Shown: in pieces, positions 10,962 to 43,700 of the stretch
Layout: each line of letters starts with the position of its first letter
Numbering within the stretch: the first letter of the stretch is position 1
Assembly (NCBI RefSeq): GCF_029227915.1
Contig: NC_079882.1
Coordinates: forward strand, 8,804,001 to 8,868,000
From: Hydractinia symbiolongicarpus
Lineage: Eukaryota > Cnidaria > Hydrozoa > Anthoathecata > Hydractiniidae
Reading direction: 5' to 3'
Length of the DNA: 64,000 nucleotides
Notes under the pieces: generated by a model
What the model saw: the letters and a program-made list of their open reading frames with translations, nothing else
What the model was told of the DNA's origin: nothing
Database searches by the model: none
Made by a program: the position numbers and the translations under genes

Positions 10962-13900
10962 TTCCTCTAATATATACAGTAGCCTGTTACATCATTACAA
11001 CAGAGCAAATTTCAATCAATAAACCTTTACAATAATTCAATTGTACATGAGTTCCTATGGCTCTCCATCGTTTTACAATATTAGAAGAAAGGAGGTAAAA
11101 AACCTGTTTTTATAAGAGTTTGGTACAGACAAAAGCGTGTTTTCTCCAGTTTTTTTAACTTCCTTTGCATCAATTTCTTTTAACTTTTCAGGAAATGATA
11201 CAACTAGATACAACTTATGTGTACTTTTCATTAAAAACAAAACGCGGAATAAAAAGTTATCACAATAGAACTCTTATAAAAGGGTGATGTTTACCTCCTC
11301 TGATTGCAAAATAAGCTGCGATGGAGTGTTAGTTTTCCCTAATTATCGTAACGATGTATTGTGAAAAGTGAATTTAAGAGATCCAAGAATTGTATACGAC
11401 ATATATATATATGATTTTTGTATTATACCTTGAAAATAAGATAATACATTTTTGTGTGAATTAATTTTTACAAATCCCCTTTTTAATAAATTTTGCATTA
11501 AATTTTGTGATACAAATATAAACAAATTGTCAAGACTATAAACTAACTACATAAACAGAAATTCTTACATAGAACTCTTACACAAGCAATATTTATTCAT
11601 AAACACATGGGAAGCTAGCTAAACTTGAAATTAGAATATCAATTTCTAAGTTTTGTGTAGTTTTCAATTTTACGGCATGTTATTCATGTGACTTTAATGT
11701 CTTGTAAGCACTACACGAATTTAGTAATTTCGTGTAAAAAGGCAAGGAAAACATAAAGGGATTAGTCTAAGTCATTTGCCTCGCCTAAGATAAATAAAAC
11801 ACTGTTTTTAAAAATCGAAAGCGCACAAGAAGAAAAATATGGACGGTCGAACTCATAGATTTTTCTGCCACCGACTGAAGCTGGAGGTGGGTTATTAATT
11901 ACGATGGCCCCTATGGCTCACTTCTTTTTTAATTTGAAAGCACTTCTCTTCTTCTTCTCTCCTCACGTTACTTTTTTGTATGTTGACACTTCTCTTCTGA
12001 CTGCTTAACACTTTTCAGCATGTGGTCCAGAACCATCTCTTAACACGGAAATTTTAAAATCTGGTCTGCAATTTTACACCCATGTCGGCTCCATTAACAC
12101 AACCTAACCTTACCCGACAATGTCGTATTCCTGGCCCCGTCAACAACTTAAATGCGCATCCAACACACAACGTTAAACATCGTACAACATCGCTCCCAGG
12201 ACCTGTAGTTTTTTTTAAATGAGGATAAAAGTACATATAAAAAAAGCTACAGGCCCTGGGATCGAGGTTAAACATCGTAATGTTGCTAATACATTCTAAT
12301 ACCTAGTGCAATATACTATAATACACTGTAATACTTTGTAGTATTCGGTAATACACTGTAATACTTTGTAGTATTCTCAGTAATACATTGTAATACCTTG
12401 TAGTATTCGGTAATACATTGTAATACCTTGTAGTATTTGGTAATACATTGTAATAACTTGTAGTATTCGGTAATACACTTTTTTAATCTCTCTGTGATCC
12501 ACTTAACCGCAATTACCGAGATCGCAATGCAAACGGTGCATTGTAGAATATTTTTTTGTTTGATATTGTGCCGGTACCGGTGGAATAACAGACCAGATAA
12601 CAGAAATTTAAAAATAATAGTTATCAATGCCACGCACGAAAATGCATTAAAACGAGTAAGCTCATGTGTTATTAGGAGAGCACCTATACATGCATACCCA
12701 AAACATTGTAACCTACGTAAAGCCATGGTGCCTTAACAAAAATTTATCTGTAAAGTAAGTCAACTGTCATTAAAAGAACATTTCAATACACTTAACCGAT
12801 GCTCTAATCACCGTATTCTCACAAAGCAAGAAATACAGACATCCAATTAAAAATTCATTGCTGAACAATTGTATTAGCTGACATGCGTGAAAATTATGTG
12901 TTATTGCGCTAAGATCGCGTGATATCACACCATATGTCGTATTATACTGAGTAATATTACACTATGTGATGTACGTAATTAAGTAACCTTATTATATCAC
13001 ATTTCATGAATCATAGGAAATCACTTTCATACGACTTTTTTACCGAATAATGAGCTGTTAGGTAATTCAAGAAGTTCAGGACAATTTTTATTAAGAAGAA
13101 AAAGCAACTCAAAGAGAGGATTAAGGAATGGTATTACAGAGATCTGTTTTAAAGGGGAAAGAAATTAGTTTTTAAGAAAAGGAATAGTTTTTGTCATTTT
13201 GATAATACAAAAAGCAAATATTTCTGCACATTTTTGAAGCTATTTCCTAAATAGGGTTTATGAATTTAAAAAAATATTGTTTGTCACTGAGTAAATGCCC
13301 CCATGAAGATACGGATACAGTGGCTTTTTCATGCACGCAACAAAAAGGAGAGGTACAGTAATTCGTTTTCCAGTTAAACATTTCAAGCGCTTTAATAATT
13401 CTAGCGTTTTTATTGGTAATAGACACCTACTTGTTTAGTTATTCTGAGTTATTGGTTTCTTAAACTCAGATTGCATTCAGATAACATTTACAATTGTTCA
13501 ATTGCGTAGAAACAAGGACTGAAAAAGGATTCGAATATACAGTTTGAAATTTTTTTTTATTAATTTTTTTATTCTTTTTCCATATAGCTATATGACTGGA
13601 GGCGTTGCGGGTTGAATATTTACAAATTAAAATTAAAAAAAATAATCATGATATTCATAAAAATGGTAACAAAATATCAAAAGTCAAAACAGAGAGATGA
13701 AAAAATAATGTGACTTTTATAATTTTTCTAGTTTGACAATGCTGCTATGAAATATCTTCGTTTTAGTACTTTAACACCGTCGCAAACGCAAGAACTTCCT
13801 TAAGTCCTTATAGGCACCAAGTGAGCAGTTAAGCTGTCGTCAGGCCAAGAATACGACAATGTTTTTTAGAGTTGACATTGTCGGGTACAGTGAGCTAGTG

Positions 13901-17586: not shown

Positions 17587-20500
17587 ATGGTTGCAATGGC
17601 AACTGAAAGTAGAAAACGAACAGTCGAAGACACTGATAGTGGCAGTGCTAAAAAAGCAAAGAAAAAATCATCTTCGCATTATGATTGTGAAGTCACCTGT
17701 TTAGATGGATCCAAGTTAAATCTAACTGTGAATGTATGTGCTTAAACCTATGCTTCTGTTTTCTACCTTTTCACTATCTTATCATTTTCTTCTTATTGTT
17801 ATATTATATTGCTTGCATCATTTTTACATTATTTTTTCAGAAATCTGGAAAAGGGGAAGTCCTTTTTATGAAGATCATTGAAGACCTATCGATTACTGAA
17901 AAAGAATATATGGGCTTGTTATTCAACGATGATAAAGGTGTCAAGGTAAATATATTTTCAAGTAAATTATTATAAAGTTGGACTTTTTATTATCATAATT
18001 ATTTTTATTATTTATTATTATTATTATTATTTCAAATATTTATACAGTCACCTAAGTATGAGAAACACTGTTACCAATGTGGGTCCTGTGTTCTGAATGT
18101 TCACATTAGGTATACATCCATTGCCTACCCAATTTTCCTTACATGGCATGGGTTGAACCGCAGCTGTGGTGAAAGCACTTGCTAAACATGCCCACACTGT
18201 GCACGTATACGCATCCAAATATGCACAAATCAATTAAGGAGTGCTATTGATAGCACATGCAAAATACTAAATTTAATAACAGGTTCACCAATGTATAGCA
18301 CACCTAACAATGTAGCATACTTGATATGTGCGTTTTGCTACACATGTCCTAAAACCTTTCTGAAAAAAATTGAAAAAAGTTCATTATTGCATTTTTTCTA
18401 AAGCATATTTTTTTTGGACAGGTTTGGCTTGATATTCATAAGGACATGAAGCATCAATTAAAAGGTGATAAAACCGTATAATTTTTTTCCTAAACAATTT
18501 GCTTTAATTATAAACTATTTTGAATAAATAAAATTTGAAAATCTAACAAACTATTTGTCAGTAAGCGTGAATTATGTAACTTTTTTTTGTAGATGCGAAA
18601 CCCAATTTCGAACTAAGGGTAAAGTTTTATGAACCTGAGCCTACAAGATTGCAAGATGAGTACATGAGGTACATATATGATTTTCCCCATGTACTAACGA
18701 AACATGGAAGAAAAATTTTTATATTATGTTTTTCTATTTTAGATATCTTCTTTATTTGCAACTGAGAGAAGACATTACTATGGGGAGGTATATGATCTTT
18801 TTTACAGTCTCAGTATAATGATTTTTTGTCTTCATTCTAAAGGTGTTGTTGTAACCCCATTAGTCCTGAATTTACACTATTAACACTGTGTGGTTATAAC
18901 AGTAGTCTTGTAGTAGTTTTCCTATTTCATGAAGCCTCTAAGAATTATTTTCTTTTGTTTCAGATTGGTCTGCTCTGACAATATATACGTTACATTAGGA
19001 GCATATACAGCACAAGGTAAAATATAATAACATTAGTCAAGGCCCATGAAAAAATTCACTTAGGAAAGGATAACAATGAAAAAGAACTGTCATTTAAATT
19101 TTTATGACATCGGCAATGACCCATCCATACACAAAAATAATTTAGAAACTTGGTTACACATTGCTTCTATTGTGTAGAGTTAAAAACATTAATCAATAAA
19201 ATGTGTAAAGTCATGTACTTTTGACGAACGATACTGACATAATTGGGTTTAAAGGTTTTTTGATGTCATTAACTTGTCCATTTCAGACTGGATTCAGGAA
19301 CCCAGGTTTGGAAAACTTACCCAAATTAATGCCACGTGGTCCCTAATTATCCACACGGTAAAAACTGACTGACGTCACCACCTCGTTTCTAAGTTACTTG
19401 GCCTCAAAATTTCAAGTGAATTGACATTAAATTAGTGTTATTAATGTCATGCCGTAACATCAGAAAATTTAACAGATGAGGCATAACTTTTTTTGGCTAT
19501 TTGTTGGAAGCTTTATTGAATGGTAATGATGGATTATTACTTTTTCTAGCTGAACTTGGAGATTTCCATCTGTCAGAACATGATCATAATTACCTGGATG
19601 ACTATGATTTTGCACCAGAAAAGGTATGTTAAAGGAAGGAATTCACTGATTGCAAAGTAAAAAGAAACATTGTATAACATTCTCTTTTGGGCCATAAACC
19701 AAAAATAGGGTAAGATCAACAAATGCAACAAACAACAGTATTCAGGCCTAGTCAGGAATGGCGTGCGATCGTACGCGCACACACCCACACATGCCATGGT
19801 CAAATGTTCCTGTGCGATCTTCGCACGCCGAAAAAAACACTAAATACATGTGTGCGCTAATCGCACACCAAAATAAATAATATTCTGTTTAATGAAGGCA
19901 TACGGGAATAATATACAGTGCAGATCATGAGTAAAGCTACACATCTTTGAGAGTACGAGTACAAATAAATGGGAGTAAAATAATTCAGAGTGAGAGAACA
20001 ATGCGAATGCAAGTAAAATAAATAAGAGTAATCAATAATTAAAATACTCGCAAGTAAATCTTTAAAAAAATATTATGTTACTCGCGAGTTATATTAAAGA
20101 AAAACATAAGACATTAATTTTAATTCACCATTTATTTATTTTTTAATTTAGTTGCTCTTTTGAAATTAATAAATAAATTTTAAAGTTCAACTTTTCCGTC
20201 TTTTACTTCTTTAAATGCTTTCGCTACTTTCGTTACATGAAATCACTTCCAGCATGTTCTTTCGCAAGCACAGAGTCAGCATGATATCTAATTATAGTTA
20301 TGGTGATCAATTGCCATATGCAGACTTTGCTTTCTGAATATTTTCAACAAATATTGCTTTATAACTCAGACAACAATCTGTATAATTTTAAAACATCGCC
20401 ATAGAAACAGGACGTCACAAAGCTTGTTATTGTTATGTTTAGGGGGGAATGTTTTAAGATCGAAGCAACAATAATAACATGAGGGATTTTTTTATAAAAA

Positions 20501-23500
20501 AAACAGTTTAATGTTTAATGATATATTTTTTTTGAGAAATATAAAAATAAAAAATATTTACCTCTAAAAAAATATTTACAAAAAAGTTGTTAACTGAAAG
20601 AGTTTTATGACTAACATGCATGTTTTATAATTTTTCTTCGTTCTGTTGATACGTTGTATACTTTTTTTTTCAAAAATAATGAGCACATTGCACATTTTAG
20701 TTTCGTCGCAACAAATTACCTGCTTTTTAAAACATGACAAAATTAGTGTTGCTGTATACGAGTTCTATGATTACTCGAGAGAAAAAATGGAACAAAAATA
20801 AGCACACGCCATCGCACGCCATTGAGAATTATGCTGTGTGAACATTGCACGCCTCAGAATGATAAAAAGTGTCATGACGTGCGAAGCTCGCACGCCAGCA
20901 TTTTTCTTCCTGACGAGGCCTGGTATTAATTTATTTAAGTTTTAAAACATTCCTTCTATGCATTTTTGTCACAATAATTTTTGTTTAGAGTGCCACAATG
21001 AACAAAAATATTCATGAATTGCATAAAGAACACAGGCAAGTTTTGGATTTCTTTAATTATTATACTATCTTATCGACTTTTATGTGGTAAGGTATTATCT
21101 CTTTTATAATTAACTTTTTATATATTTATAACTTATTTCCATTGATTTGTCTTTGTTTTGATTTAGGGGTCAGACACCTGCTCAGGCTGAGTTAAACTTT
21201 TTGGAAGTTGCGAAAAAAATTCCACTTTATGGTGTTGATATACATCATGCCCATGTAGGATGTTTGTGTATATATTTTATCAGATTGATAACTTGTATTA
21301 TATTTTACTTTATTTGTATGTTTACATTTGATTGGAAATTTCAGGATGTAGAAGGTCCAGTTGACATAGGAATGGCTGCACTTGGTATAAACATATACCG
21401 CAATGATCAACGTGAATGCCTTTTTAAATGGTAGGTGAATTTTTCGACTTGATTAATGTAGTTTTCAATGTCAATATAATTTTTGTGTAAGGCAGAAACT
21501 TAACAAGAATGTTCAAAAAATTTTTGTTGGTAATTTTCCTTTCTTGCTTTTTTTACTGATACAAGCAGTTATCACACAGTGCTGAGAGCATATTGTAAAT
21601 ATCTTTCAAAATTTGATGTTTTTGTTTGAATATTTTACGAGAGTTTAGGTGAGTGAAATATACAAGAACTAAAAAATGAGCTTTTGACAATATTTTTTGA
21701 GAACAGGTATAAACCAAGCATTAATCGTTGTATATTTGGTATACTTGGGCAAATCATTGTTTAATTTCAGTCATGTTTCATAATGTTCTTTGTTCAACAG
21801 CGAATAAGGTTTTACAATTTAATTTGAATAATCGAATTAAAAACATGTCTTCTTCAATGTGTTTAAAATCTCATTGAAGTCACAATTAAAATAAACATTC
21901 TTAGTGGTGGAGTCTACAGGCTCTCTGGTGACATTTTAATGACTATATAATGCAAATAAAAAAAGAACTTGACTGTATTATATAGAAAAAAGAAGAATTG
22001 AACTTTATGTTTGTATAATTATATTTTATTTGAAAGAAATTTTTGTAATAAATTTACTGACCTAGTTTTTTAAACAAACAACTTCAATTCAACCTAATAG
22101 AACCAAAGTTTTTTGCAAGCTAATTTAGCTAATCAGAGAGAAAATTAGTAAAACAATGCTTTCTTGGTAGAAAAAAGTATAAAATATTTTGTGAAGATAA
22201 GCCAATCAAAGTGCAGAAAAACGTAAACATAATACTTTTTTTATAATTCCTATGCAAGATCAAACATGAAAATCAAGTTGTACCATTCATATAAAGATTG
22301 TCCTAAGAATCTATCAGTCCAAGTAGGCGTGCTAGTTACAGGTATCACATTTTCATTCAAAAAACAACCATGAAAGCTCCCTTTGTTGCGATAATGTGTG
22401 GATGCAATACAAGCCCTAAGCTTAGTAACAATTTAAAATAATATCTAAATAGTACACTGGGTATATTTTTAGCTAACAATTTAAAAAAAATGTTTAAATG
22501 ATTATCAAGAGCCTTCATGTCAAATTTTCTCTTCTAGGCAGTCAGTAGATGCAATTTTGTACAACAGAAGAAAGTTTACTGTGAAGTTAAAGGAGCCGCT
22601 GGTAAGAAAAACACTTTCACAACTATTACTTGCAATAAACACAAGATTTTCATGTGAGAAATGTCTGTTATAGGAAAACGACCACAACAAGGAGAACAAA
22701 CCAAATTTGACATACATTTACTATTCAGATTCAGCCAAAGAATGTAAACAATGTTACAAGTCTGCAGTGGAGTACCACACCTTTTTCCGCTTGACACGTC
22801 CTGATGCACCACGGAAGAAGGCTGATAAATTAAAACTTGGTTCAAGTTTTCGATACAGGTTAGTTAATATAAGAAATTATTAACTGATAGCTATTTTCAA
22901 CTGGTTAATACGGGAAATCCGTAGCGCTGATTGGATAAAAATCCTGAACGACAGGCTTTATACAGCACGGTATAACTTTTAACCTCTTAGAAATCATAAT
23001 GGTAGCTATAAATGTAAACAAATAACATTGCCAGAGAATCATGAAAACATACAAGCTACATACAAGTCTTGAAATTTTACTTAATAACTATATTTTTACA
23101 AAACAGCTTTTTTTAAAGCTACAAAAAGCAACAACATGATCGTTTTAAGTATCATTGAAGAACTGGAAAATAATTTCGATTTTGGAATTGAGTTTATGCC
23201 ATCCCAATCTTTGACGTCAGTTTCTACAAGCGACGATGAAATCAGCGATTTTTTGTTCGCCAGTAAATCTAAGAGAACGACATATCAAGATTTAGCAGCT
23301 TCTCGACGATTGAGATTGTTTATGAAAGAAAATAATGCTCATCAGACTCGTGATTTTCTCGATCTATCACCATGTGAGTTGAATCAGCTGATGTGTCAAA
23401 TTTTCATGCAAGCTAAAAAAATAGAAAAAAACCTGAAAAAAAATAATTTGTACCAACTGGACACACTGAATTTTTTCAGGAACACATGGCAAGGAGTTCT

Positions 23501-26500
23501 CGATGATAATGGGAAAAAAGCAAACATTAAAACTGACAAAGAATTTGACAGATCGCGAAAAGTTTTGGCTAGCAGACGGAAACACCTCACACAACTTGGA
23601 ATAGGGAATAAACCCAATGCCACCACGTCCCTTGGAAGAAGGTGAAGTTGACAAACTTTTTGAAGTCAAATACTTCGATGTTGGAGATGGTAAAACACTT
23701 CAACGAACTATGTGGTGGATTGTAACAACATGCTTTGGTTATCGTGCCAGGGATTATTTGAGAAAGTTAAAATACGGGGACATAAAACTTTGTGTCGATA
23801 CAAACGGGAGAAAATACTTGGAATGGGATAAAGAAAGAGGAAGCAAAACAAGGACAGGAGAAAAAAGCAACCCCCATCAGTGATCTATTAACCCTCGAGC
23901 ATATGCTACAAGCACTGACCGTTGTCCTGTAAGGGTTTACGAACTCTTTGTTAGTCACTGGCCAGACACAAGTAAAACAAGTGACTCGCCAATTTTTTTA
24001 GCTGTTGTTCCAGCCCAGCACGCTAAAAATAATGTTTTGTATTTTGATCGACCTTTGGGTAAAAATTTATTGGAAAAAATTTCTCTCTGATGCTTCTGAT
24101 TTATTACAGAACAAAAATAAAGTTCCAAAATCTCGAATCTTTCCGCCAGAAAAACAGCCATTTCAACTCTTTCTCAATTTCATTTCTCAATTAAGTGGTC
24201 ACAAAAACATTGAAAGTTTAAAATCATACCACACGGCTTCAAGTAAACGGCAAGAGTAAAACATCACAAACAAGTCGTTAAGGCCCATAGAAAAATCCAC
24301 TCAGGCAGAAGTAAAATTAACAAAGAAGGGTCAGTTGAATTTTGATGACGTCAGCAACTCATCCACAAAAATAATTTAGATAATTCAGCGTATCGACATC
24401 GCAAGCTTGGTCTATACTTTTGACCTCGGTAATATTTCTCGGTATAGATAGACAAAACAGTTAATATCGTATTAAGAAAAATATTTTATAATATTTACTA
24501 GTTCTTTAAATAGCAACTTTTTTATTGAATTTATAGTGACCGAACACTGTACCAATTGAGACACAAGCCAAGTTTTAATGATAGTAATGTGAGTGATACA
24601 TCGTTTAATCGAACACCAAGTAAAAGAAGACCAAAGCCTGATCTGAAGGAAGTGTCAGAAGAAGGTATGTCTTTATTGTGAAAGAAATCGTTATTATCCT
24701 GCAAGTTTTCTTTTGGAAAGTTTGCAGGACTATTTATCTTCAATTTATTTCAAGCATATATTTTTATATTAGAATCTCCTATGCAATATGAAGAAATTGA
24801 AATGGATGAATCCAATCCAGATGATGATAAATATGATCCAAAGGTGATAATAGGATTCTCACATATTTTAAATGTTTACCCTCTTAAAACATCTGTTGAG
24901 GCTTCATAGTTTTTCTGATTATGATTAAGGAATGGGAAGTTGTTGAGAAGACGCTTCCTGATGGAACAAAAAAAAGATACAGAAGAAGGGTTATTATTGT
25001 AAAGCCCAATAAGAACAAAAATGATATACCAATGGTTGAAGAAACTCCTTTAGGGCATGAGCTAATTCCCATTGATGAATCAAATCCTGAGGATGAGAAA
25101 TACAACCCAAAGGTGTTTGTTATATATTTTAGTTTGCTAAATGCATTATTGCTTATAGTTGCTCACATAAAAACCTTACTAAACTTTGCTTCCCTTACCA
25201 GCATTAACTTTAGTTTTATAAAATCAGTTTATTTAACCTGTTTTATTTTAGGATTGGGTTATCGTGGAAAAAACACTTCCAGATGGTACAAAGAAACGAT
25301 ACAGACAAAGAAGACCTGGAGGAAATGTTCCAATGGTTGAAGAAGGTCCTGTTTACTATCAAGAGGAAAAAGTTGATGAAAACAATCCAGAAGATGACAA
25401 GCATGATCCAGAGGTATGTTATTTACTTAAAAATTACTCTAATGATCAAGAAATATTTCCTGGGTGGGATTAAGGCTACTAGCCAGTTAAGCTAATCCAC
25501 CCATTATGCAAACATAACCTTTTTGTACTTCCTCAATTCAGTTCTTTTAAAGTATATTGTCTATTTCATTTATAAACACCGCGTTTATTTTAACAGGAAT
25601 GGGCCACTGTTGAAAAGAAACTTCCTGATGGTACAAAGAAGAAGTACCGCAGAAGGATTATAACAGTGACAAGAAAAGGTGAAGACGATCCTATGAATGA
25701 TCAAGTTACTATTCCATTTAAAGAAGTTGAAATTGATGAAAGAAACCCAGAAGATGAAAAATATGATCCAAAGGTTAAATTTTAGGATTCCATTTTTATT
25801 TTAGTGATAATTTTGATTCAGCTAGCCTCTATTTCATACTTCAAATTTTAAATAACCTGTAAACTGTCATTTTTAGGAATGGGAGACGATTGAGAAAAAA
25901 ACTCCGCGTGGAAAAAAGAAAAGACTTCGACGAAAAAAGATTCATATTGTTAATGTTGTTGCAAGAAGACCATTGGAAGATGGAAAGCCAGACAATTCTT
26001 CTGTTACTGTTGTGGAAAGCCCCTTTGATTACGAAGAAGTTGAGCTCACTGAAGCAAATCCAAACGATGAAAATTTTGATCCAGAGGTATGTTGATGCTT
26101 TCAAAAAAGGTTGTTGCAGTAAGTTGTTGTAAACGTTAGATTCTGATTAAACGTATTTTTTATTACAGTTATTTGAAGTTGTAGAAAAACCTCAGCCTGA
26201 TGGAACAAAGAAAAGATTTAGGAGAAGAATTATAATTTTAACTAAACCTAAACTAAGTGATGACAAGAAAGATGTAGAAAGTAAAGATGGTATCATTCCG
26301 ATGATTGAAGAATCTCCAATTCGTTATGAAGAAGTTGATGTTGACCATGCACATCCAGAGAATGATGATCAATTTAAACCACAGGTATGAGATTTTGTTG
26401 GTAAAATTTATAAAATAAATGTTGGATCACTGCTTTTAAATTATAAGTGGAACATAATGCAATGAATCAAGCCTTACCAAGGTCAGGTCTACAATAAGTT

Positions 26501-29500
26501 CATTCTGCTGGAAAACTTGCATGATTATACACATGTAGGACTGGGATATTGTGGAAACAACCGATCCTGATGGTAATAAGAAGAAACTGAGAAGAAGAGT
26601 CATCGTTGTGACTACGTTAAAGAAAAGAAAAGGAGATAATGACGATGTTCCAATGGTTGAAGAAGGTCCCGTTAGTTATCAAGAGGAAGAAGTTAATGAA
26701 AACAATCCTCAAGATGGCAAGTATGATCCAGAGGTGTGTTTTTTAAAACAAAAAATATTAATTACTACATAAAGTTAGAAATTTAATGTTCACTAAGATA
26801 TGACAATTGGGGTTTATTTTTTCAAATATTTGTACTTATTTTAAAAGGAATGGGCCACTGTTGAAAAGAAACTTCCTGATGGTACAAAGAAGAAGTGCCG
26901 CAGAAGGATTATAACAGTGACAAGAATAGGTGAAGACGATCCTGTGAATGATGAAGATAATATTCCATTTGAAGAAGTTGAAATTGATGAAAGAAACCCA
27001 GAAGATGAAAAATATGATCCAAAGGTATATTTTAGGATTTCATTTTTATTTTAGTGATAATCTTTAGTCAACTATCCTCTAATACATTCTTCAGAATTTA
27101 TATAATCTGTTAACTGTCATTTTGAGGAATGGGAGACGATTGAGAAAAAAACTCCGGGTGGAAAAAAGAAAAGACTTCGAAGAAGAAAGATTCGTATTGT
27201 TAATGTTGTTGCAAGAAGACCATTGGAAGATGACAAGCCAGACAATTCTTCTCTTACTGTTGTGGAAAGCCCCTTTGATCACGAAGAAGTTGAGCTCACT
27301 GAAACAAATCCAAAAGATGAGAATTTTGATCCAGAGGTATGTTGATGCTTTCAAAAAAGGTTGTTGCAGTAAGTTGTTGTAAACGTTAGATTCTGATTAA
27401 ACGTATTTTTTATTACAGTTATTTGAAGTTGTAGAAAAACCTCAACCTGATGGAACAAAGAAAAGATTTAGGAGAAGAATTATAGTTTTAATTAAACCTA
27501 AACTAAGTGATGACAAGAAAGATGTAGAAAGTAAAGATGGTATCATTCCGATGATTGAAGAATCTCCAATTCGTTATGAAGAAGTTGATGTTGACCATGT
27601 ACATCCAGAGAATGATGATCAGTTTAAACCACAGGTATAAGATTTTGTTGTGAAATGCAACAAAACAATACTTGATTTAGCCTTCGTTTGTGTAATTAAG
27701 CAGTTAGATACATACGGAAAGTTTGATTTCATGTTGTAACATGGATATTTACATATTTATATATGTCAATAGGACTGGGAAATAGTGGATAAAATCGACC
27801 CTGATGGTAATAAAAAGAAACTGAGAAGAAGAGTCATCGTTGTGACTACGTTAAAGAAAAGAAAAGGAGATAATGATGATGTTCCAATGGTTGAAGAAGG
27901 TCCTGTTTGCTATCAAGAGGAAGAAGTTAATGAAAACAATCCTCAAGATGGCAAGTATGATCCAGAGGTGTGTTTTTTAAAACAAAAAATTAATTACTAC
28001 ATAAAGTTACAAATTCAATGTTTACTAAGATATGACAATTGGGGTTTATTTTTTCAAATATTTGTACTTATTTTAAAAGGAATGGGCCACTGTTGAAAAG
28101 AAACTTCCTGATGGTACAAAGAAGAAGTACCGCAGAAGGATTATAACAGTGACAAGAAAAGGTGAAGACGATCCTATGAATGATCAAGTTACTATTCCAT
28201 TTGAAGAAGTTGAAATTGATGAAAGAAACCCAGAAGATGAAAAATATGATCCAAAGGTTAAATTTTAGGATTCCATTTTTATTTTAGTGATAATTTTGAT
28301 TCAGCTAGCCTCTATTTCATACTTCAAATTTTAAATAACCTGTAAACTGTCATTTTTAGGAATGGGAGACGATTGAGAAAAAAACTCCGCGTGGAAAAAA
28401 GAAAAGACTTCGACGAAAAAAGATTCATATTGTTAATGTTGTTGCAAGAAGACCATTGGAAGATGGAAAGCCAGACAATTCTTCTGTTACTGTTGTGGAA
28501 AGCCCCTTTGATTACGAAGAAGTTGAGCTCACTGAAGCAAATCCAAACGATGAAAATTTTGATCCAGAGGTATGTTGATGCTTTCAAAAAAGGTTGTTGC
28601 AGTAAGTTGTTGTAAACGTTAGATTCTGATTAAACGTATTTTTTATTACAGTTATTTGAAGTTGTAGAAAAACCTCAGCCTGATGGAACAAAGAAAAGAT
28701 TTAGGAGAAGAATTATAATTTTAACTAAACCTAAACTAAGTGATGACAAGAAAGATGTAGAAAGTAAAGATGGTATCATTCCGATGATTGAAGAATCTCC
28801 AATTCGTTATGAAGAAGTTGATGTTGACCACGCACATCCAGAGAATGATGATCAGTTTAAATCACAGGTATGAGATTTTGTTGTGAAATGCAACAAAACA
28901 ATACTTGATTTAGCCTTCGTTTGTGTAATTAATTAGTTAGGTACATGCGGAAAGTGTGATGATTTCATGTTGTAACATGAATATTTCATATTTGTATATG
29001 TCAATAGGACTGGGAAATTGTGGATAAAATCGACCCTGATGGTAATGAAAAGGAGATAAGAAGAAGAGTCATTGTTGTGACTACATTAAAGAAGAGAAAA
29101 GGGGATAGTGATAATGTTCCAATGGTTGAAGAAGGTCCTATTGAGTATGAAGAAGTTGAAATTGATGAATCGAATCCTGAGGATGAGAAATATAATCCTA
29201 AGGTACGAAAGTTGATGTGTAAAAAGACAACAGCGTAAGCGTATATTTTTTCTGTTTTTCATGCTAAGATTTTTTGTTTACTATATTTTCATAGGATTGG
29301 GAAGTTGTTGAAAAAACACTACCTAATGGAACGAAGAAAAGATACAGAAGAAGAATCATTGTGATTGCTGTTGCTAGGAAAAATAAACCTGATGACGTCA
29401 CATCGATAGTTGATAAAGCTCCAATTCAATATGAAGAAGTTGAAATCGATGAATCAAATCCTGAGGATGAGAAATACGATCCAAAGGTGGGTTATGGATA

Positions 29501-32500
29501 TTTACTATTGATGGACTTCTCTTCTGAAAAACAGGCAAACATTGCTTCCTAGCAGTCATAGCAGTCACAAATACGAATATCTTTTTTCCGTTTAAGTTTT
29601 CTGCGATGCGATTTTTAATTTTTTGTATGTTTTATTTGATTGTGTTATTTAGGATTCACCCGAGTTTGTTAAGTTTTGTAGAACCCACTGAATTTTGTTG
29701 TATGTTTTGAAAATAGTTTTAAATGTCATTATGTTACTTAGGATTGGGAAGTAGTGGAAAAAACTCTTCCTGATGGTTCAAAGAAAAGAGTTAGACGCCG
29801 CATTGTTGTCATCTCTGTCATAAGGAAAAACAAACCAAAAGATGATGACAGTGTTGTTGAAGAAGCTCCAATTCAATTCGAAGAAGTCGAAATTGATGAA
29901 TCTAACCCTGAAGATGAAAAATATGACCCAAAGGTACGATAAAACTTCTTATCAATTTCCATAAGTTATCCAAGAACACATATCGTCAGTCTAGGAAAGT
30001 ACACAATTAACATTTTATATGCTTGATTTATGCTTAGGATTGGGAAGTAGTGGAAAAAACTCTTCCTGATGGTTCAAAGAAAAGAGTTAGACGCCGCATT
30101 GTTGTCATCTCTGTCATAAGGAAAAACAAGCCGAAGGATGATGACAGTGTTGTTGAAGAAGCTCCAATTCAATACGAAGAAGTAGAAATTGATGAATCTA
30201 ACCCTGAAGATGAAAAATATGACCCAAAGGTACGATAAAACTTCTTGTCAATTTCCATAAGTTATCCAAGAACACATATCGTCAGTCTAGGAAAGTACAC
30301 AATTAACATTTTATATGCTTGATTTATGCTTAGGATTGGGAAGTAGTGGAAAAAACTCTTCCTGATGGTTCAAAGAAAAGAGTTAGACGCCGCATTGTTG
30401 TCATCTCTGTCATAAGGAAAAACAAGCCGAAGGATGATGACAGTGTTGTTGAAGAAGCTCCAATTCAATACGAAGAAGTAGAAATTGATGAATCAAATCC
30501 TGAAGATGAAAAATATGACCCAAAGGTACGATAAAACCTGTTGTCAATTTCCATTCTAGAGCTGTACACAATTAAAGTTTTGTATATTTGATTCATGCTT
30601 AGGAATGGGAAGTTGTTGAGAAAACTCTTCCAGACGGTACCAAAAAGAAAGTTAGACGGAGAGTAGTTATAGTGTTATTGGTGGCTGGAAAGAAAGGCAA
30701 AGACCTTCCATTGGTGGAAGAACGACCTGTTGTTTATGAAGAAATGGAAGTTGATGATGAAGAAGAACCAGATGATAATAATCTCGATCCTGATGTATGC
30801 ACATTTTATTTCAACTCTAAATTAAGTGAATTTTGTCCAATGTTATGTTTTTCTGAACGTCTTGTTAGGAATGGGAAGTTATTGAGAAGAATCTCCCTAA
30901 TGGCGAAAAGAAAAAATACCGAAGAAGACTGGTCAATGTGATTCTCACTAAGAAAGGTGAAGACGATCCTATGCTTGATGAAGCACATATTCCATATGAA
31001 GAAATCGAAATTGATGAAACCAATCCATCAGATGGTAGATATGACCCTGAGGTATCTATTTGTTGTGTTGGACTTCTTTTGCTGTGGTGCTACTAGTTCT
31101 TCATACTTCTTACTTTATTATAGGAATATGAAACTGTCGAAACAACACGCCCAGATGGCACTAAGAGAAGAGTGGTGCGCAAGAAGGTTGTACTTGTTAA
31201 AGTAACCGCTATTAAGCCCAAGACAGATGATAAGAATGCGATTGTTGCACCAGTGATGGTTGTTGAAACGCCCTTCAATGAAGAGGTGCCCATAGACGAA
31301 AATGATCCACAAGATGATAAGTTTAACCCCGAGGTAAAAAAAATAAATAAATTATAATTTCTTTGATTTTATATTTGATTTTTGTCTTTTAACCTTCTGT
31401 AAGTATTTAATGGAGAGGGCGAAAAGAAACCAGTAAATTTTCATATTATGTTTTGATATTGTTTTCTTGTAACATTTAGGATTGGGAAGTTGTAGAAAAA
31501 TCTCAACCTGATGGAACAAAGAAAAGATTTAGGAGAAGAATTATAGTTTTAACTAAACCTAAACTAAGTGATGACAAGAAAGATGTAGAAAGTAAAGATG
31601 GTATCATTCCGATGATTGAAGAATCTCCAATTCGTTATGAAGAAGTTGATGTTGACCATGCACATCCAGAGAATGATGATCAGTTTAAACCACAGGTATC
31701 GTTCTATTTCCATCATACTTTATATCAACTTCTTTAATACTTTGCAGTTTAATTTTCATTCGGTATTGACTACAATTGGCATTGACAAAAGTGGGAGACC
31801 GCTTAACCCCAAAGATACCAGGCTTTTTATGTATACAAATCTGTACCATTTTTTGACATACTTTTAGTGTGTCATAAAAATGGTAGCAGTAGCTTGTGAC
31901 GTCATCGGAAGCCTAAAATTTTCACAAAATGCCACTATCTGCTTAAGATTTAATTGATTAATTAAGTTTTTGGCAGCAAAATAACTGTTATTAAACGGTT
32001 TTTTTTCAATTTTCACATGAAAACATGTTAAAACTCCCCGAAAATTCGAATTTTTTTTTTTGGGGGGGGGGGAAATCAAGTTTATCACGTGTTCAGACTT
32101 GGCAGAATGATTCCTTTTGATAAATTAAAGTTGCGATATTCCTAGGGAAAGTTATTAAATTTTCCTGTTCATAAAGATTATTTCATACCTTAGACTCTAG
32201 AAGTAAGGGACCTAAAAATTTGGCTTGCAGGTATCTACTAGATTAATATAGAAACTCAGGAAGTATCAATGCAGCATAGCAAAAAGGGTTATCAAGAAAC
32301 ATTGGCAGACCCTGGTATTTAGCTAAGCTTTATATTTATAGGATTGGGATATAGTAGAGAAAACGCTTCCAGATGGTACGAAGAAAGTTTTCCGTCGAAG
32401 AGTTATCACTGTGGCAACTATCAAGAAAAGAAACGGAAAAGCTGATGACGTCATGCCGAAGGTGTCAGAAGCACCAATTCAATTTGAGGAGGTTGAAGTT

Positions 32501-35500
32501 GATGAATCAAATCCTGAAGATGAGAAATACGATCCTATTGTAAGCTCCCTTTTATGTTTTATTTCAATTTCTGCTTGCTTTTATGCATTGTTGTATGTTA
32601 TACAAAAAAGCTTGGTTGGACGTTTAATTTTCTTCTATTTGCTAATCATAATTTTCTAAGGATTGGGAAATTGTTCGAAGAACTCGCCCTGATGGTGTAA
32701 GAATTCGAGTGAGACGTCGAGTTGTATCTATCACTGTTGTTAAAAAACCAAAACAACCGGAAGACCAGCCAATAGTGGAAGAAACACCATTACAGTATGA
32801 AGAAATTGAGATTGACGAGACTAACCCAGAAGACGAGAAATACGATCCAAAGGTAAATTAACTCTCAAATCCGAAAATAAAAAATAACATCAGAGTACAA
32901 TATCTCGTTAAAATATCTGGGTTTTAATCCTAGGATTGGGAAGTTGTCGAAAAAACACTACCTGATGGAACGAAGAAAAGATACAGAAGAAGAATCATTG
33001 TAATTTCTATTGGCAGAAAAAATAAACCTGATGACGTCACTCCAATAGTTAACGAAGCTCCAGTTCAATATGAAGAAGTTGAAATCGATGAATCAAACCC
33101 TGAAGATGAGAAATACGATCCAGAGGTAAGAAAAATTATTTGGCATGACTTATTGCATTATAAAAATTATTTCTGATAAAACGTAATAAATTTTTTCTTC
33201 AGGATTGGGAAATTGTTGAAAAGGAACTCCCTGATGGAACAAAAAAGCGATATCGACGACGTATTATAACTATCGTTACAACGACGACAACGACGTATAT
33301 TGTTCACCCTGATGGCAGACAAGAAGAAGTGTCCACGGAGACATCACCAGTTGTCACTGTTCTTAATGGACCTGATGGGTATTGTCACTAATCTTCTTTC
33401 TGAATTTATATTATACTTTTTTCTCTTACGTATTTTTTTATTTTTTTTTTATTTTTTGTGGTTTATTTAGTAAAAGTGAAAAACTACCAGATGATTACGT
33501 TATTGTCTCTGAAAACACCACTACAACGGAGAGTGGTTTAGAAGAACTCGATGGAGAAGTGCAACTGCCTGTACTCGACGTCAACATGGACGACATCCTA
33601 ACTGAAATAAAGTATGACCTCGACCTACATAGTTATTTGATATTGATATTCGTTGCATCGATAGTAGTTCGATATTTATAGGCGTTACTTAGATAATTTC
33701 TTGATAAATAGTCGTTGTTCGAAACTGAAACATTTGGTTCACTTTTCAATTTTGTTTTAGTGCCATGTCTCGAAGTTTGGATGATGAAGGCAAAGGAGTA
33801 GACAAGCCTCAGAAAATCAAAGAAAACGACAAGCTGAAGACGTTGGATGATGAAATGCAAAAATTGCAACTGGAACAAGATGAGGAGACGGAAGAGGAAC
33901 GTCGAAAAAGGGAGGAAGACCGAAGAAGAAGAAGTGAGGAAGAGAAGAGACTAGGCGAAGATCTGAATGCAACTATCGACAGTATTTTCACACTACCTGA
34001 AGAAGAACTCGCGGAAAGACCAGAACGTAAGTTGCAGCTTTGAAAACTTTCCAACACAATTAGCTATAAATTTATCACAATTAGTATCACATTTAACCAT
34101 CTTTCTTCGTGGCTTAGGACCTCGTTTCCAAGATATATCGTTTGAAATACCGGAAGATCACATAAAAGTTGAAAGTGACGACGATTTAGAATTTGTCAGT
34201 GTCGCAGATGCCGAGTATATCGGCATTGATACCGACGAAATGATTAGAACAGCGTCTTTGTTACGACAAAAGAAAGAGGATGAAAAGAAAACAAAACCCA
34301 CAGCAGTAAGTGGTGAACAAATTTAAAATTATTTAAAAGAATTCCTTTTTTTATCTTCTGCTTAGTACTTACTCAGTGAATTTTTTTTCAGATCGTAAAA
34401 CCAAAACCGGCAAAAAGATCAGCCACCGTGCCAAACCAACGCGCATCTACTGGTGATATCGTAACCCCAAGAAAATTATCGGCTGGTCCAAAACCCGCAC
34501 GGTATTTTTATTTTTCGATATTTCTTCGACATGACTTTTATTATAATCAGCAAAGGCAGTATACGATATCATATAGTTTTTGTATTATTAATATTTAGTC
34601 CGTTATCTAACGTTGGTTTGGATCAGAGTGACTACCATCGTCCCCATGAGTCAGGAAGTTCTCAAATCATCTACACTGTTACCGATGTCTCAAATGTGGA
34701 ACAAGGTGCAGGGGGCTTCGTGCGAGCTGTGAAAGGTAATTAAAAAGACACAACAGGTAGTTTTAGTTCTTTTATCTCTATCACACTTTTAAAATATTTA
34801 TTTCCATCTACTTGTAGCTAAACATGAAGGCATTGCTACGGAGGAGGAGAAATCTGTCCGTCGTTCATCGAGAGTTTCGTCAGACGGCGAACCACCATAC
34901 ACACCAAAAGGACATGTGCCCACTCGTACCGTCAGTTTCGACGAGAACGATAAAGCGAAAGTTATTCGAACAAAAGCACCGCCTGCTGTAGCAGCCAAAC
35001 CCACCGTTATCGTACCGGCCACTTCGGAGTTACCAGATGAGGAAGTGGTGTTCGAAGTTAACCAGGCAAGCATGTTTCGCTTTTGTATTTCGATTTTTTT
35101 GAGTCTAACTTTTACGTATTTTTAAAGAGCTTTTTTAACTTCGTGTGTAATAGATTCCTGAAGAATCGCATCCCGACATCGAACACGACATTATCGAGCC
35201 GACAGACCTCCCTCAGGTCGAAACTCAACCCGTCATTTTCCGACCAATCGAGGATGACGTTAAAGTTGGTAAGTGCTAAAGTTATTATTACTAGTAGGTA
35301 GCCACGGGTTTTCGTCCCTTTTATATCGTATTTACTTTATCGTATGTAGCGCACTATAAAATTGCACAGAGATGACAGACAGGAATTATTAATATGGAGA
35401 TTTTCGCCCAGGATAGCCTCAAAATAATATTTTTCCATCCAGCCATTATTGTTTCCATATATAACGCTTTAATGTTATGTCTCCTTATTTTTAGTCCCTG

Positions 35501-36791
35501 TAGGAGACGAACCAGACATAGTTGAAACACATGTTGTTCACATCGTCCCACAAACTGAATCTAGAACCATCGAAACTATTCACGTTTTTCCTCCTGATGT
35601 TAACACTCACGAAACAGAAAGTCAATGCATCGTCACAACACACACGCTTCCAACTGAAGTTATCACAAAAACCATCACCATCGAAGGCGACACGGAGAAC
35701 ATGACGCCCGAAGAGCTACAAAAACTCATTGCGGAAGCAGGTGGAGACTCCGAGTCAATCGAAACATCGACATATACGCAAGTTGTCAAGGTGAATATAT
35801 GTTTTTCATTTTTGATTTCTTAATTATCTGTGTTTATTTACCTGCATTGCTAAACAGAAAGTATAATTAATTATGCGGTGACGTATTTAGACAACTACTG
35901 TTCAAAAAGTAATCACTGGCCAAACGATCACTGTAACTGGTGATGGAACAGAAGAAGAAATGAACAGGGTAAGTGTGATATATCAGGTTGTGTAGTTTGT
36001 GTTGCGTACTTTTGATTTACCTGAATGTTTTTTAATACAAAATAATCAAAACAATAATTTTGTAACGTTTTGTGGTATTTATTTGCGCGAAGTGTTGTAA
36101 GATGCATTAACAATGCGCACCTCGCTTTCAGGACGTACAACTTGATGACAACGAGGCAGTAGCCGCTGTGAGTATTCGATTTTTTGCAATTTTGCACTTC
36201 ACTGGACGTAGACACTCCACCGTAGACGCATTTGACTTGCACGACTTGATATTAACGCACGATGTGATATTGTCGCACTGTTATCACACAAAAGCCTCAC
36301 TTGATCACTTTTCGTAGTAAATCATGTAAAAAGTGATAATTCTTTTGCACTTTAAGACTTAAAAAGCTGTTTAACGTATTTTTATTTGTTAAACAAAAAT
36401 ATATTTTTTCAACAACACTATTTATATGCGTAATTTTCACGACTTTTTGGGTTGACGTAATGTCATATGACATAAAGCCGCACACTGTAAAATAAAAAAA
36501 TTGCAAAAAATCTTTACTGAGCTTGGTTGCTAAACAAATACAGCCTTGATCCATAGAATTAAAACATTAGGGGCATTTTTCACGAATTAAAAGCATTGAT
36601 ACAATTCAAATTTTAGGGTCTTAATCATGTATCTTCAAATTTTTTTCCTCATTTCTCTTTAGATGATTCGAAACGCTGTTGAAAGCGCAAACGAAAATGC
36701 CGGTGACGACAGAACAATTGTGTTAACGGCCGTTCAAACATACGAAGAAGAAGTTGACGACGAGGACGAACATGGTGACACGGAAATTTAA
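17587..36791 (+). CDS. EPB41-like: Protein 4.1 homologue with giant exon-repeat array (51 exons, 2673 aa)
   Basis: Membrane-skeleton adaptor of the band 4.1/coracle family. N-terminal exons: 17587-17733, 17841-17945, 18422-18464, 18593-18668, 18743-18787, 18964-19016, 19550-19623, 20989-21035, 21167-21254, 21345-21430, 22538-22601, 22674-22858 (FERM, residues about 35-337), then 24537-24664 (FERM-adjacent region with FNRTPSKR, like the 4.1 R-T-x-S-K-R phosphosite) and 24773-24843. Repeat exons 24930-33378 are described separately. C-terminal exons: 33471-33611, 33761-34026, 34118-34305, 34392-34501, 34599-34735, 34818-35065, 35154-35268, 35495-35790, 35891-35968, 36132-36167, 36663-36791. The sum, 8022 nt, is in frame. 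FERM hallmarks: VWLDIHKDMKHQL, RVKFYEPEP, TPAQAELNFLE, LYGVDIHHAHD, VEYHTFFRLT, GSSFRYS. The C-terminus (VITGQTITVTGDG and the final AV-x-x-A run) resembles the 4.1 CTD. No vertebrate-like spectrin-actin domain is evident. Start: first ATG after an AG; a second ATG lies three codons on. Confidence 0.9.
19743..20922. mobile_element. 1.18-kb TIR element in protein 4.1 intron 7
   Basis: Ends form an inverted repeat: CAGGCCTAGTCAGGAA at the left and the complement of CAGGCCTCGTCAGGAA at the right. GTATT flanks both sides directly (19738-19742 and 20923-20927), a 5-bp target duplication. Subterminal regions are full of GTGCGAT/CGCACGCC words in both orientations, while the middle is AT-rich without an open frame. 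It looks like a non-autonomous DNA transposon with many subterminal transposase-binding-like motifs; the superfamily is not determined. Confidence 0.75.
23136..24259 (+). pseudogene. Decayed Crypton/DUF3504-type tyrosine recombinase
   Basis: Lies in the intron between exons 12 and 13 of the protein 4.1 gene, same strand. Frame 1 (23136-23645) encodes an N-terminal region ending in ASRRKHLTQLGIGNKPNAT. After a frameshift near 23620 a second frame gives LEEGEVDKLFEVKYF, TLQRTMWWIVTTCFGYRARD and YLEWDKERGSKTRTGEKSNP; an in-frame TGA then interrupts before NPRAYAT and CPVRVYELFVSH. Further stops and a shift follow, ending with QLSGHKNIESLKSYHTASSK. These blocks match, as I recall the family, the DUF3504 tyrosine recombinases related to Crypton elements (also exapted in KCTD1, ZMYM and QRICH1): Arg in FGYRARD and His in LSGHKN are catalytic-type positions. 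At least two frameshifts and several stops make it inactive. No active protein is inferred. Confidence 0.8.
25597..29202 (+). repeat. Four-exon higher-order repeat (about 1.25 kb period)
   Basis: Within the array, exon types A (starting EWATVEKKLPDG), B (EWETIEKKTP), C (LFEVVEKPQPDG) and D (DW-x-IV with DPDGNKKKLRRR) recur in that order, introns included. A begins at 25597, 26848 and 28080; B at 25877, 27127 and 28360; C at 26169, 27419 and 28652; D at 26539, 27773 and 29008. Intron sequences between equivalent exons are also similar, so the duplications are genomic and recent. Confidence 0.92.
29742..30602 (+). repeat. Three 296-bp exon-plus-intron tandem copies
   Basis: Exons at 29742, 30038 and 30334 are spaced exactly 296 bp apart and are almost identical (64 codons each, VEEAPIQFEEVE in the first and VEEAPIQYEEVE in the others). 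Their introns share GTACGATAAAAC followed by CAATTTCCAT; the third intron is shorter and has diverged. This is the youngest-looking local duplication in the array. Confidence 0.93.
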
Positions 36792-40700: not shown

Positions 40701-43700
40701 GCGCCCCAGCGTTCAGTAGGGCTTTGACGCTTTCCAAGTGCCCTTTGTTGACTGCAACATGAAGACTGGTTTGACGTCGGTTGTTGCGGGCGTTCAAGTC
40801 GGCATTAGCTTCATGCAGCATCTTGATGACAGTGCCTATAAAAAAATAATTTATTGTGTTTAATGCAGACTGCAAAGAGATGTTTATTTGGGAATAAATA
40901 AACAAGTAAATTTAAATACCATTATCACTAAAAGTGGCATGGTGGATTGCTCTGTCGCCATCTTTGTCCTACGTCAATAAAATCACTATACATGACATCC
41001 ATAATACCACACAAACTGTATTTTTTATATTGCCAAAACATCACCTGTATTTCTGTGTCTGCCTTCAACTTGATAAGCAATTTAACAGCATCAGTTTGAC
41101 CATTTTGACAAGCAGCTTGTAATGCGGTGTGACCAGCAAATATCGAATCAACCTAACACATCAGAAATGAATGTATCAAAGAGAAAAAAATGACGAAAAA
41201 AAATAACCAAAGCTTCTTTTTTTACAAAATACATACGTGGACGCCATATTCTTTATGAATCTCCTCAATCTGCTTGACATTCCCTTCTGCTGCAGACTTC
41301 ACTAACAACTCCGCAGGTTCTTTTGAAGAATGACCTTCAAACAACTTCTTAAGGAGTGACGAAACGTCATCTAATCATAAAAAACAATAAAATAAAAAGA
41401 AACAAACAAACAAATGAATTTAAACATAAAAACTTTATTTACCTCCATTGCTTCCTCTAGTTGCTCCAATCTTTCGAACACATCTCGCATTGAACGTCCA
41501 CGTGGTCTCATTCACATCAACCTAAAGTACAGAAAAAATATCAGGATAAACAAAATGAAAACAAATGTTTTTAAAATTAAGTAAAAGCTATTCGGTGTTA
41601 AACCATCGTCAGTGCTATGTAGATCAAGTTTATAAGCTTAGTGACGTCATCTGCTGACAAAAATTACAATACCTTCAAATCACCGTCACTGTAAACATAT
41701 TGCACATGACCGATTTTTCCTAAGGTCTATTAAAATAAAGCATACAGTGAAATTTAAATTACGCACGCAAAAAATAGGGCCTTAATTTTCTGTAGTTTGT
41801 GACGTAAGTAATGGAACAATATGAACAGAAATTGGAAAAAGTATTTTAAAAAAATTAATAAATTTGTTTTCGTAATTGACAAATGGAGCGAGCAAGGAGA
41901 GAGGGGTTGGTCTCCTTGCTCGAGGTCTGTAATATTTAAATGAATGAGTGAAAGAATGAATGAATGAAATTGAAAAAAACGTACAGGTATCATAGCTTCT
42001 GTCCATTCGCCATGCCCAAGTTGTAAGCAACTAACTTGTTCAGCATCTGACAAAATTTGCACTATGTCTCCAACAGCAAAAGTGCCCTGAGTCGTCGAAG
42101 AGTCTTCATTGGCTGTTGACACATTTATGTTGGTGGACGATAAATTCATGTTGGCGAATGCTTCAATACTGAGCTGATTTCTTCTTATGCGATTATCTTT
42201 TGTTAATACTGCTGGGTTAAAAGTCCACCTTAAAAGTAAAAATTAACACACATAAGGCTTAAAAATGGTAGAAAATAAACAACTGCTTAGTTCGTTAGGC
42301 AAGTATTGTATTTCCTCTAATAAGTCCCTGGCAGCCTAGTGTTTTATTTTCAAATATCGGATGGCAACTTATTGAAGGAAGCTTTAAAACGAGGGAGTGG
42401 TACACTTACTTCAAACTTTTAACATCAAGGCAGTCCGACAAGAAAACGGGATAACCACCAAATTTTTTTGAACAAGTGAAATAGTAACAAGACTCCATTT
42501 TAAAAGAGTAAAGACTTTTAAAAGAACTACTTTAAGGGAAAGAAACTTTCGTGGTAATTCAAGTTTCCACTGACTGGAGAGCTGGAGACTAACGCAATAA
42601 GACCCAGAACACACGGTCTAATATATTTCTATGTTATCTCTTTTTAATACAAGTAGTAAATCTTTAATCAAAATATAAATTAATAACTTTACACCTGATT
42701 TCGGTCTTTATTGTAAAAATCACCACCAGTTATTTTTTATTCTTGCAAAATAAACAAAAGAAACAAATGTAAAAGCTAATTCCCATAAACATCTCTTAAA
42801 AGACCAGTAAGTCTTGGGAATTACTTTTCAAAAAGTAATTCCAAAAATTTCGCAGTGATTTTGCATCGTCCCTTAAAGTGACTCACACTTATGAGACATA
42901 GCTTTATCCCTAATAATAGCTGTGGCCACTCAAGAGGCGGTTATTAGAGGAAGGGGCAGTTATTAGAGGAAGGGGCATTTATTAGAGGAAGGGGCAGTTA
43001 TTAGAGGAAGCGGCAGTTATTAGAGGAAGGGACAGTTATTAGAGGGAGGGGGTGCTTATAGTTGATCATTTTCAACAGGCTACGCCATTATTGAAGTTGA
43101 AGGAAAGAGGTGCTTAAAGGTGGAAATGTGCTTGGGAAATGAATTACAGCACTACACTAAATTAAATTGAAATGAAACAAATAAATAAAATTGAAAATAA
43201 TATTTTACCTGTTTCCACTTGGATATGAAACAATTACATCACCATCTTCATCAAAACCTGATATTAATCCCATTTCTTGAAGTGCCTGAACCAAAAAAGC
43301 TGAATGTAAATTTTTTTTCCTATTTTTTAAAACGACATTTAAGTTACAAAGAGCTTCCTTTGGTTTTGGACAGGTATTTGACCTTTTTCTTGCCAACAAT
43401 TTGTCATACTGAACATAATTTTGGCATTTTCAAGTTACCCGAAATTTTCTTGAAATAATTGAGCAATAATTCCAAGGTTTTTGTAGGAAAATTGATGATG
43501 CTTTGCAAAGATTTTTCATAATGTAGGATGTCTGGATGGTTTCTAAGGTGTGGAAAGCCTGTACATAATGTTCCATCATGATTAAATGCAACCATATAGT
43601 AACTTTAGAGGAGTTGCCTTATCTCTCATTACTTCATTTCAACAAAAAAAGTTAAATCAAATATTACCTCTAGCATACCATACGTCCATCCACCATGGCC

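Follow-up and report, generated by a model that had tools for sequence, protein, structure and literature searches.

The gene described here lies in a window of 64,000 nucleotides from the hydrozoan Hydractinia symbiolongicarpus (NCBI RefSeq assembly GCF_029227915.1, contig NC_079882.1, positions 8,804,001 to 8,868,000 of the forward strand). All positions below count from the first letter of this window, the G+C content of which ranges from 27 to 40% in 2-kb steps. On its forward strand, 51 coding exons between 17587 and 36791 splice into a single open frame of 2673 amino acids (aa), with GT-AG or GC-AG borders at every intron. By sequence, the product is the protein 4.1 of H. symbiolongicarpus with a strongly diverged putative C-terminal domain (CTD), and between head and tail it carries an array of 26 copies of a small charged module. 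Probably, this protein serves as a FERM-anchored, multivalent and splice-tunable arm that arose from a single module amplified by the duplication of phase-0 exons.

The exons were spliced by hand with a check by script, and the model, built by eye before any database comparison, equals the deposited P0001 ('titin-like isoform X2' of H. symbiolongicarpus) save for the 12-aa exon 50. A chain of this kind might be suspected to be an artefact in which two adjoining genes were joined or the assembly went wrong, as near-identical repeats are hard to assemble and the gene model is genome-based. This is highly improbable, given that the deposited Hydractinia model describes the same chain and that deposited Clytia and Hydra proteins keep the order FERM, array, tail.

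The array comprises residues 381-2092 (1712 aa) and extends from the start of exon 14 to the end of exon 40, which is exactly the interval 24773..33378 proposed from the letters alone, while the accompanying estimate of about 1690 inserted residues was too low. The same reading spoke of 26 consecutive phase-0 exons with one module each. There are indeed 26 modules and 26 phase-0 introns, but only 25 exons (15-39) are in phase 0 at both ends; exon 14, which contributes an acidic half-module only, runs from phase 1 to 0, and exon 40, with the last basic half, from phase 0 to 2. Likewise, the picture of an array of one-exon modules stands, but the module unit itself is split by an intron between its acidic loop and its basic hairpin. 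Phase-0 introns make up 26 of 26 in the array versus 10 of 24 elsewhere in the gene (naive P 1.3e-10, the duplicated exons not being independent). All 26 modules score E <1e-19, though they themselves contributed to the profile used, and a search of the genome (480,894,487 bases or 480.9 Mb, 76 contigs) with one module returned, among the best candidates scored, 27 places, every one of them in this array. The parts of the gene are collected in Table 1.

Table 1. Parts of the Hydractinia protein 4.1 gene, with positions in the window and the basis of each assignment.
Feature	Position	Strand	Basis
Exons 1-12: start codon and FERM N, M and C lobes, residues 1 to ~338	17587..22858	+	gene model, Pfam, nearest solved sequences
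Exon 13: most of the FERM-adjacent (FA) region, 3' of a 1.7-kb intron	24537..24664	+	Pfam FA
Exon 14: acidic half of module 1, phase 1 to 0	24773..24843	+	gene model
Exon 15: basic half of module 1, linker, acidic half of module 2	24930..25112	+	gene model, profile
Exon 16: phase 0/0 module exon, the shortest (54 aa)	25252..25413	+	gene model, profile
Exons 17-20: four-exon cassette, copy 1	25597-25773, 25877-26086, 26169-26384, 26539-26733 (span 25597..26733)	+	DNA comparison
Exons 21-24: cassette, copy 2	26848-27024, 27127-27336, 27419-27634, 27773-27967 (span 26848..27967)	+	DNA comparison
Exons 25-28: cassette, copy 3	28080-28256, 28360-28569, 28652-28867, 29008-29202 (span 28080..29202)	+	DNA comparison
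Exon 29: module exon	29295..29486	+	gene model, profile
Exons 30-32: three near-identical module exons, 296-bp tandem period	29742-29933, 30038-30229, 30334-30525 (span 29742..30525)	+	gene model, DNA comparison
Exon 33: module exon	30603..30794	+	gene model, profile
Exon 34: module exon	30869..31051	+	gene model, profile
Exon 35: module exon	31124..31333	+	gene model, profile
Exon 36: near-copy of exons 19, 23 and 27; flanking introns unrelated	31480..31695	+	DNA comparison
Exon 37: module exon	32342..32539	+	gene model, profile
Exon 38: module exon	32661..32852	+	gene model, profile
Exon 39: module exon	32934..33125	+	gene model, profile
Exon 40: basic half of module 26 and Thr-rich flank common to Rhopilema's single module, phase 0 to 2	33203..33378	+	gene model, flank comparison
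Exons 41-51: charged linker, VEQGxGGFV block, diverged C-terminal region; stop codon ends at 36791	33471..36791	+	gene model, tail profiles

Protein 4.1, a well-studied membrane-skeleton linker, is represented in vertebrates by 4.1R/EPB41 and EPB41L1-3 and in the fly by coracle. In the Hydractinia protein, residues 36-371 correspond to the FERM domains and FA of this family, with Pfam matches above cut-off for FERM_N (5.6e-13), FERM_M (6.8e-25), FERM_C (2.3e-17) and FA (PF08736, residues 330-371; 35.5 bits against a cut-off of 30.6). The nearest solved structures by sequence are EPB41L3 (232.8 bits) and 4.1R (212), followed by PTPN3 (163) and FARP (160), and with the predicted FERM of a Clytia relative EPB41L3 and 4.1R are again the top Foldseek matches. 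A passage of PMC1459144 describes a true protein 4.1 as FERM, FA and CTD, joined in mammals by SAB. No match to SAB (PF04382) was found in the pieces scanned; being a mammalian feature, it is not required of an invertebrate 4.1. For the tail, profile comparisons with hhalign connect the hydrozoan sequences to coral 4.1s (98.3% probability, E 2e-14) and to P0011/P0013 (97.7%), and the coral tail in turn to the vertebrate CTD (89.8%, E 1.8e-6, 39 columns). Several points limit the assignment of the tail as a CTD: it has no Pfam match, PF05902 (CTD) included, hydrozoan tail and vertebrate CTD compared directly reach only 19%, and the hydrozoan-coral and coral-vertebrate alignments share only about 26 coral columns. 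Of the proposed placement of the array between FERM/FA and CTD of a 4.1 gene, the FERM/FA head and a related tail are borne out, while the CTD is diverged and only partly verified through an indirect and partial link. Titin was considered and rejected as an identity, with no Ig or fibronectin-III domain in residues 1-578, the 975-residue C-terminal piece or the 25 module exons taken singly; the deposited name 'titin-like' is a misnomer. As to a second 4.1 gene, the exon-12 peptide matched only itself in the genome (two candidates scored), and a genome search with FA matched only the present gene, below cut-off.

The module is predicted to consist of an acidic strand, an Asp/Glu/Pro loop and a Trp-containing basic hairpin that ends in R-R-R; an alignment of the 25 module exons shows P10, G12, P56 and D58 to be invariant. 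The Hydractinia linkers from basic hairpin to next acidic strand vary between 8 and 26 residues while the spacing of acidic strand, loop and hairpin is nearly constant, and the exon is therefore not the constant unit. An AlphaFold2 model of the truncated Clytia protein P0010 has three strands in 12 of 12 modules (396-401, 418-423 and 429-437 in module 1), and a model of a single exon (mean predicted local distance difference test score, pLDDT, 63) places a hairpin at 2-8 and 14-22, followed by the acidic strand of the next module at 45-50. From these predicted strands it follows that the intron would fall between acidic loop and hairpin, and hence that exon skipping would rebuild whole hybrid modules. 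The alignment behind the P0010 model held 16 sequences, its mean pLDDT is 56 and its predicted template modelling score 0.36, and module cores score about 45-74 and linkers mostly about 30, all of which limits confidence in the fold; we treat the three-stranded module as a prediction of low to medium confidence. The module has no convincing relative at the sensitivity of these comparisons: Pfam returned only three unrelated families for the 25 module exons (one member each, E 0.03-0.12), PDB sequences gave a best E of 0.26, and Foldseek with the module model of pLDDT 63 a best E of 2.5. The idea that the module derives from the F3 lobe of FERM was also rejected, the matches there being at chance level (E ~10).

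Charges and conserved residues were counted in 54 modules from six proteins, a set that omits the seven modules of Hydra P0009, which are near-copies, and is exclusive of the modules of other Hydractinia and Clytia isoforms. The alternation of acidic and basic halves noted from the letters alone is borne out: in every one of the 54 modules the acidic half has a negative charge, and the basic half averages +3.8 to +4.9 across the three hydrozoans, with individual values from -1 to +9. Such a pattern would suit a self-associating polyampholyte, in which the acidic half of one module binds the basic half of another, on the same or a different molecule, to form a cross-linked cortical mesh or condensate, as would the composition of the array with 19% K+R and 26% D+E. 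Its net charge of -113, however, means that pairing cannot be complete, and salt bridges inside one module account equally well for the charge pattern. Moreover, proteins with a single module hold both halves, although pairing within an array cannot be their function, and they show the same acidic/basic polarity, although in P0011, as a point to the contrary, the basic half is merely +1. The polarity therefore appears to serve the module itself rather than pairing between modules, and we judge self-association to be quite unlikely. The tryptophan is present in 22 of 26 Hydractinia, 14 of 16 Clytia and 9 of 9 Hydra modules and in all three single-module proteins; for the second R of R-R-R, the respective counts are 25 of 26, 16 of 16, 8 of 9 and two of three. 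We favour a multivalent arm, since R-R and W are for the most part retained among the lineages under comparison.

With a profile search, as had also been proposed, modules were counted across cnidarians at E <0.01. The two Hydractinia sequences contain 26 and 22, the six Clytia sequences 16, 13, 13, 12, 12 and 12 (the last being P0010), and the two Hydra sequences 8 and 7, or 9 and 7 after iteration. A single module occurs in the jellyfish Rhopilema and in P0013, and with filters off also in P0011. In contrast, none was found in five coral-type 4.1s (P0014 from Desmophyllum, P0027 from Porites, P0031 from Oculina, P0029 and P0030), nor in 104 vertebrate proteins of a 122-protein scan; the coral and vertebrate sample comes from the 120 matches listed out of 1363. 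The supposition that the insert has no counterpart in known 4.1 proteins thus fails for other hydrozoans, which share the array, but copy numbers differ there. Outside protein 4.1, proteins of about 1470-4680 aa yielded only nine hydrozoan proteins, and for about 470-1500 aa only P0010 was recovered among 7999 candidates sharing most words, in a search that missed P0012 and P0013, both known to hold a single module; an absence of the module outside protein 4.1 is weakly supported by these scans.

As for origin, of the 26 Hydractinia module flanks, that of module 26 is the best match to the 3' flank of the Rhopilema module (score 63; next 39, median 25). It is likely that an ancestral single module sat at the position of the present last module and was then amplified upstream in hydrozoans. 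For the other two proteins the same flank test favoured no single flank; it tied at 50 and 50 for P0013 and gave 37 versus 35, without a clear winner, for P0011. A tree of the 54 modules groups them by species, with 13 label changes versus 24.2 after shuffling; built from 50 columns, it has good support for 13 of its 49 inner branches and leaves 22 open, and it was used for this species clustering only. Much of the array growth looks lineage-specific, with few forks resolved.

Array growth in Hydractinia is in part recent. The three cassette copies are 87-90% identical over 1.2 kb, and exons 17-18, together with the introns that follow them, match exons 25-26 at 99-100% identity. Exon 36 shares 95-96% DNA identity with exons 19, 23 and 27, from its third codon to the exon end, while its flanking introns align at the level of shuffled sequence (53 columns upstream, 77-79 downstream). 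This exon-limited identity points to a copy made by gene conversion, perhaps mediated by complementary DNA (cDNA). The intron 3' of exon 19 is unrelated to those after exons 23 and 27, though the exons are 97-99% identical.

Selection against amino-acid change has acted on most exon pairs tested: the ratio of nonsynonymous to synonymous substitution rates (dN/dS) is at most 0.35 in 14 of 19. Against this, two young pairs have values of 0.74 and 0.91, the ratio is undefined in three of 19 (for the pair of exons 17 and 21, dN is 0.05 with no synonymous change), and dS exceeds 1 in eight of the 14 low pairs, which makes their values rough. These data also bear on a neutral explanation, according to which tandem exon duplication and conversion simply expanded a tolerated insert that has no function. 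Recent duplicates with identical introns, as in exons 17-18 versus 25-26, the clustering of modules by species, and young pairs with no sign of constraint would all be expected of it. Yet the low ratios, even with the caveat of saturation, and the residues kept across Hydra, Clytia and Hydractinia speak for function, and growth by drift alone seems improbable.

Evidence on splicing comes from deposited isoforms. In Hydractinia, isoform X3 is without exons 23-26 and has 22 modules by the profile rather than 26. Arrays of the five full-length Clytia sequences differ only by whole, near-identical N-terminal modules, with all eight later pieces in common, and Hydra P0009 joins the acidic half of P0008 module 1 to the basic half of P0008 module 3. 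The proposal that repeat exons can be skipped in frame accords with these deposited sequences, which in all three genera differ by whole modules. Two points weigh against regulation: the Hydra sequences come from separate contigs, show further differences outside this region and may be alleles or strains, and the isoforms are database models in which near-identical repeats are prone to mis-joins. Because of the latter, regulated splicing of the array is only suggested. The pieces were cut by sequence pattern in Clytia and Hydra, where one Hydra border was missed, and module counts were taken from profile scans instead. In the tail, the 12-aa exon 50 (36132-36167) is missing in X2 and present in X3, and Clytia P0003 lacks a 26-aa segment matching Hydractinia exon 49 (35891-35968); the tail would therefore be variably spliced, too.

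Intron 12-13 contains open stretches at 23088-23880 (+), one with a weak match to a QRICH1 domain (E 2e-4, below cut-off) and a second with no domain match, which we take to be, perhaps, a decayed transposable element of the Crypton (tyrosine recombinase) type. Neighbouring genes, with limits set by eye, are a phosphoglycerate kinase (2.5-7 kb, +, PGK match), an asparaginase-2 gene (8-11 kb, -), perhaps taspase-like, a gene with ankyrin repeats and ZZ finger (39-47 kb, -), probably mind bomb, and an animal haem peroxidase gene (49-58 kb, +, E 2e-201), presumably peroxidasin-like. Tandem repeats with periods of about 30, 19 and 46 bases lie at 12310-12479, 42932-43051 and 58526-58662.

Taken together, the architecture and the copy-number series make the following scheme the most likely one. 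A single ancestral module would have been amplified in hydrozoans via repeated duplication of phase-0 exons, up to 26 copies in Hydractinia. Whichever stretch of the 25 phase-0 exons is skipped or copied, an acidic half would be joined to the basic half of another module, and whole hybrid modules would result. FERM and FA would anchor the arm at the membrane, bound to membrane proteins, and the array would form beads on a string that present the same weak binding site many times over; valency and reach would depend on how many module exons the messenger RNA contains. We infer the order of events, multivalent binding at the cell cortex and regulated splicing.

Alternatively, the array could be a passive entropic spacer that does no more than fix how far the FERM-bound membrane protein lies from a partner of the tail, with module surfaces that bind nothing. 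Linkers with low predicted confidence, the variation in module copy number between species, and the precedent of exon-encoded, alternatively spliced repeat springs in titin PEVK (PMC6469411) are in keeping with such a role. Nevertheless, W and the second R of R-R-R are kept more than a pure spacer needs, the module cores are predicted as three strands and most exon pairs are constrained in dN/dS, and a mere spacer therefore appears unlikely. A bolder extension of the multivalent arm is tentative and, taken as a whole, rather doubtful: the modules would make up a novel family of small domains, seen to date only in the 4.1 proteins of hydrozoans and Rhopilema and in P0011 and P0013, in which introns inside the domain let splicing mix half-domains freely; cells could choose the number of modules to set valency and reach of the membrane skeleton, and exon-limited conversion, perhaps through cDNA, would keep the array similar.

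With the series of 0, 1, 7-9, 12-16 and 22-26 modules in the cnidarian proteins examined, one can trace how an exon-repeat protein arose and grew, and Hydra, Clytia and Hydractinia are manipulable animals. If the isoforms are regulated, they could offer a natural, genetically accessible control of cortical length and valency in very deformable epithelia. Among the open-access matches listed, subscription papers being outside this scope, no title or abstract start names a protein 4.1 with a repeat array, and passages of PMC2805694 on tandem repeats in cnidarian proteomes leave FERM and 4.1 unmentioned.

How the Hydractinia protein relates to known systems can be stated at several levels. Its closest relatives, deposited as 'titin-like' (Hydractinia, Clytia) and 'uncharacterized protein LOC100206545' (Hydra), names that are silent on protein 4.1, represent the same gene or relatives with like module and order of parts, but have 7-16 modules in Clytia and Hydra versus 22-26 in Hydractinia. 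With the protein 4.1 family at large it shares the FERM and FA head, nearest to EPB41L3 and 4.1R, and a tail akin to those of coral 4.1s, from which a further link leads to the vertebrate CTD; it differs in the 1712-residue, 26-module array between head and tail, in the lack of a Pfam match to SAB or CTD and in the strong divergence of its tail. The module itself resembles the WW domain in its small three-stranded sheet, W-E start and D-G turn, but none of the 25 module exons has a Pfam WW match, and the likeness, which is merely visual and superficial, was rejected as an identity. A final comparison is offered by titin, the PEVK segment of which acts as a spring. Like the Hydractinia array, PEVK belongs to a cytoskeletal protein and is encoded by many short exons in a row, which resemble one another and are alternatively spliced (PMC6469411); the Hydractinia modules differ from it, with PEVK sequence compared only via the Pfam and PDB scans, in their predicted strands, their W and R-R-R and the intron in mid-module.

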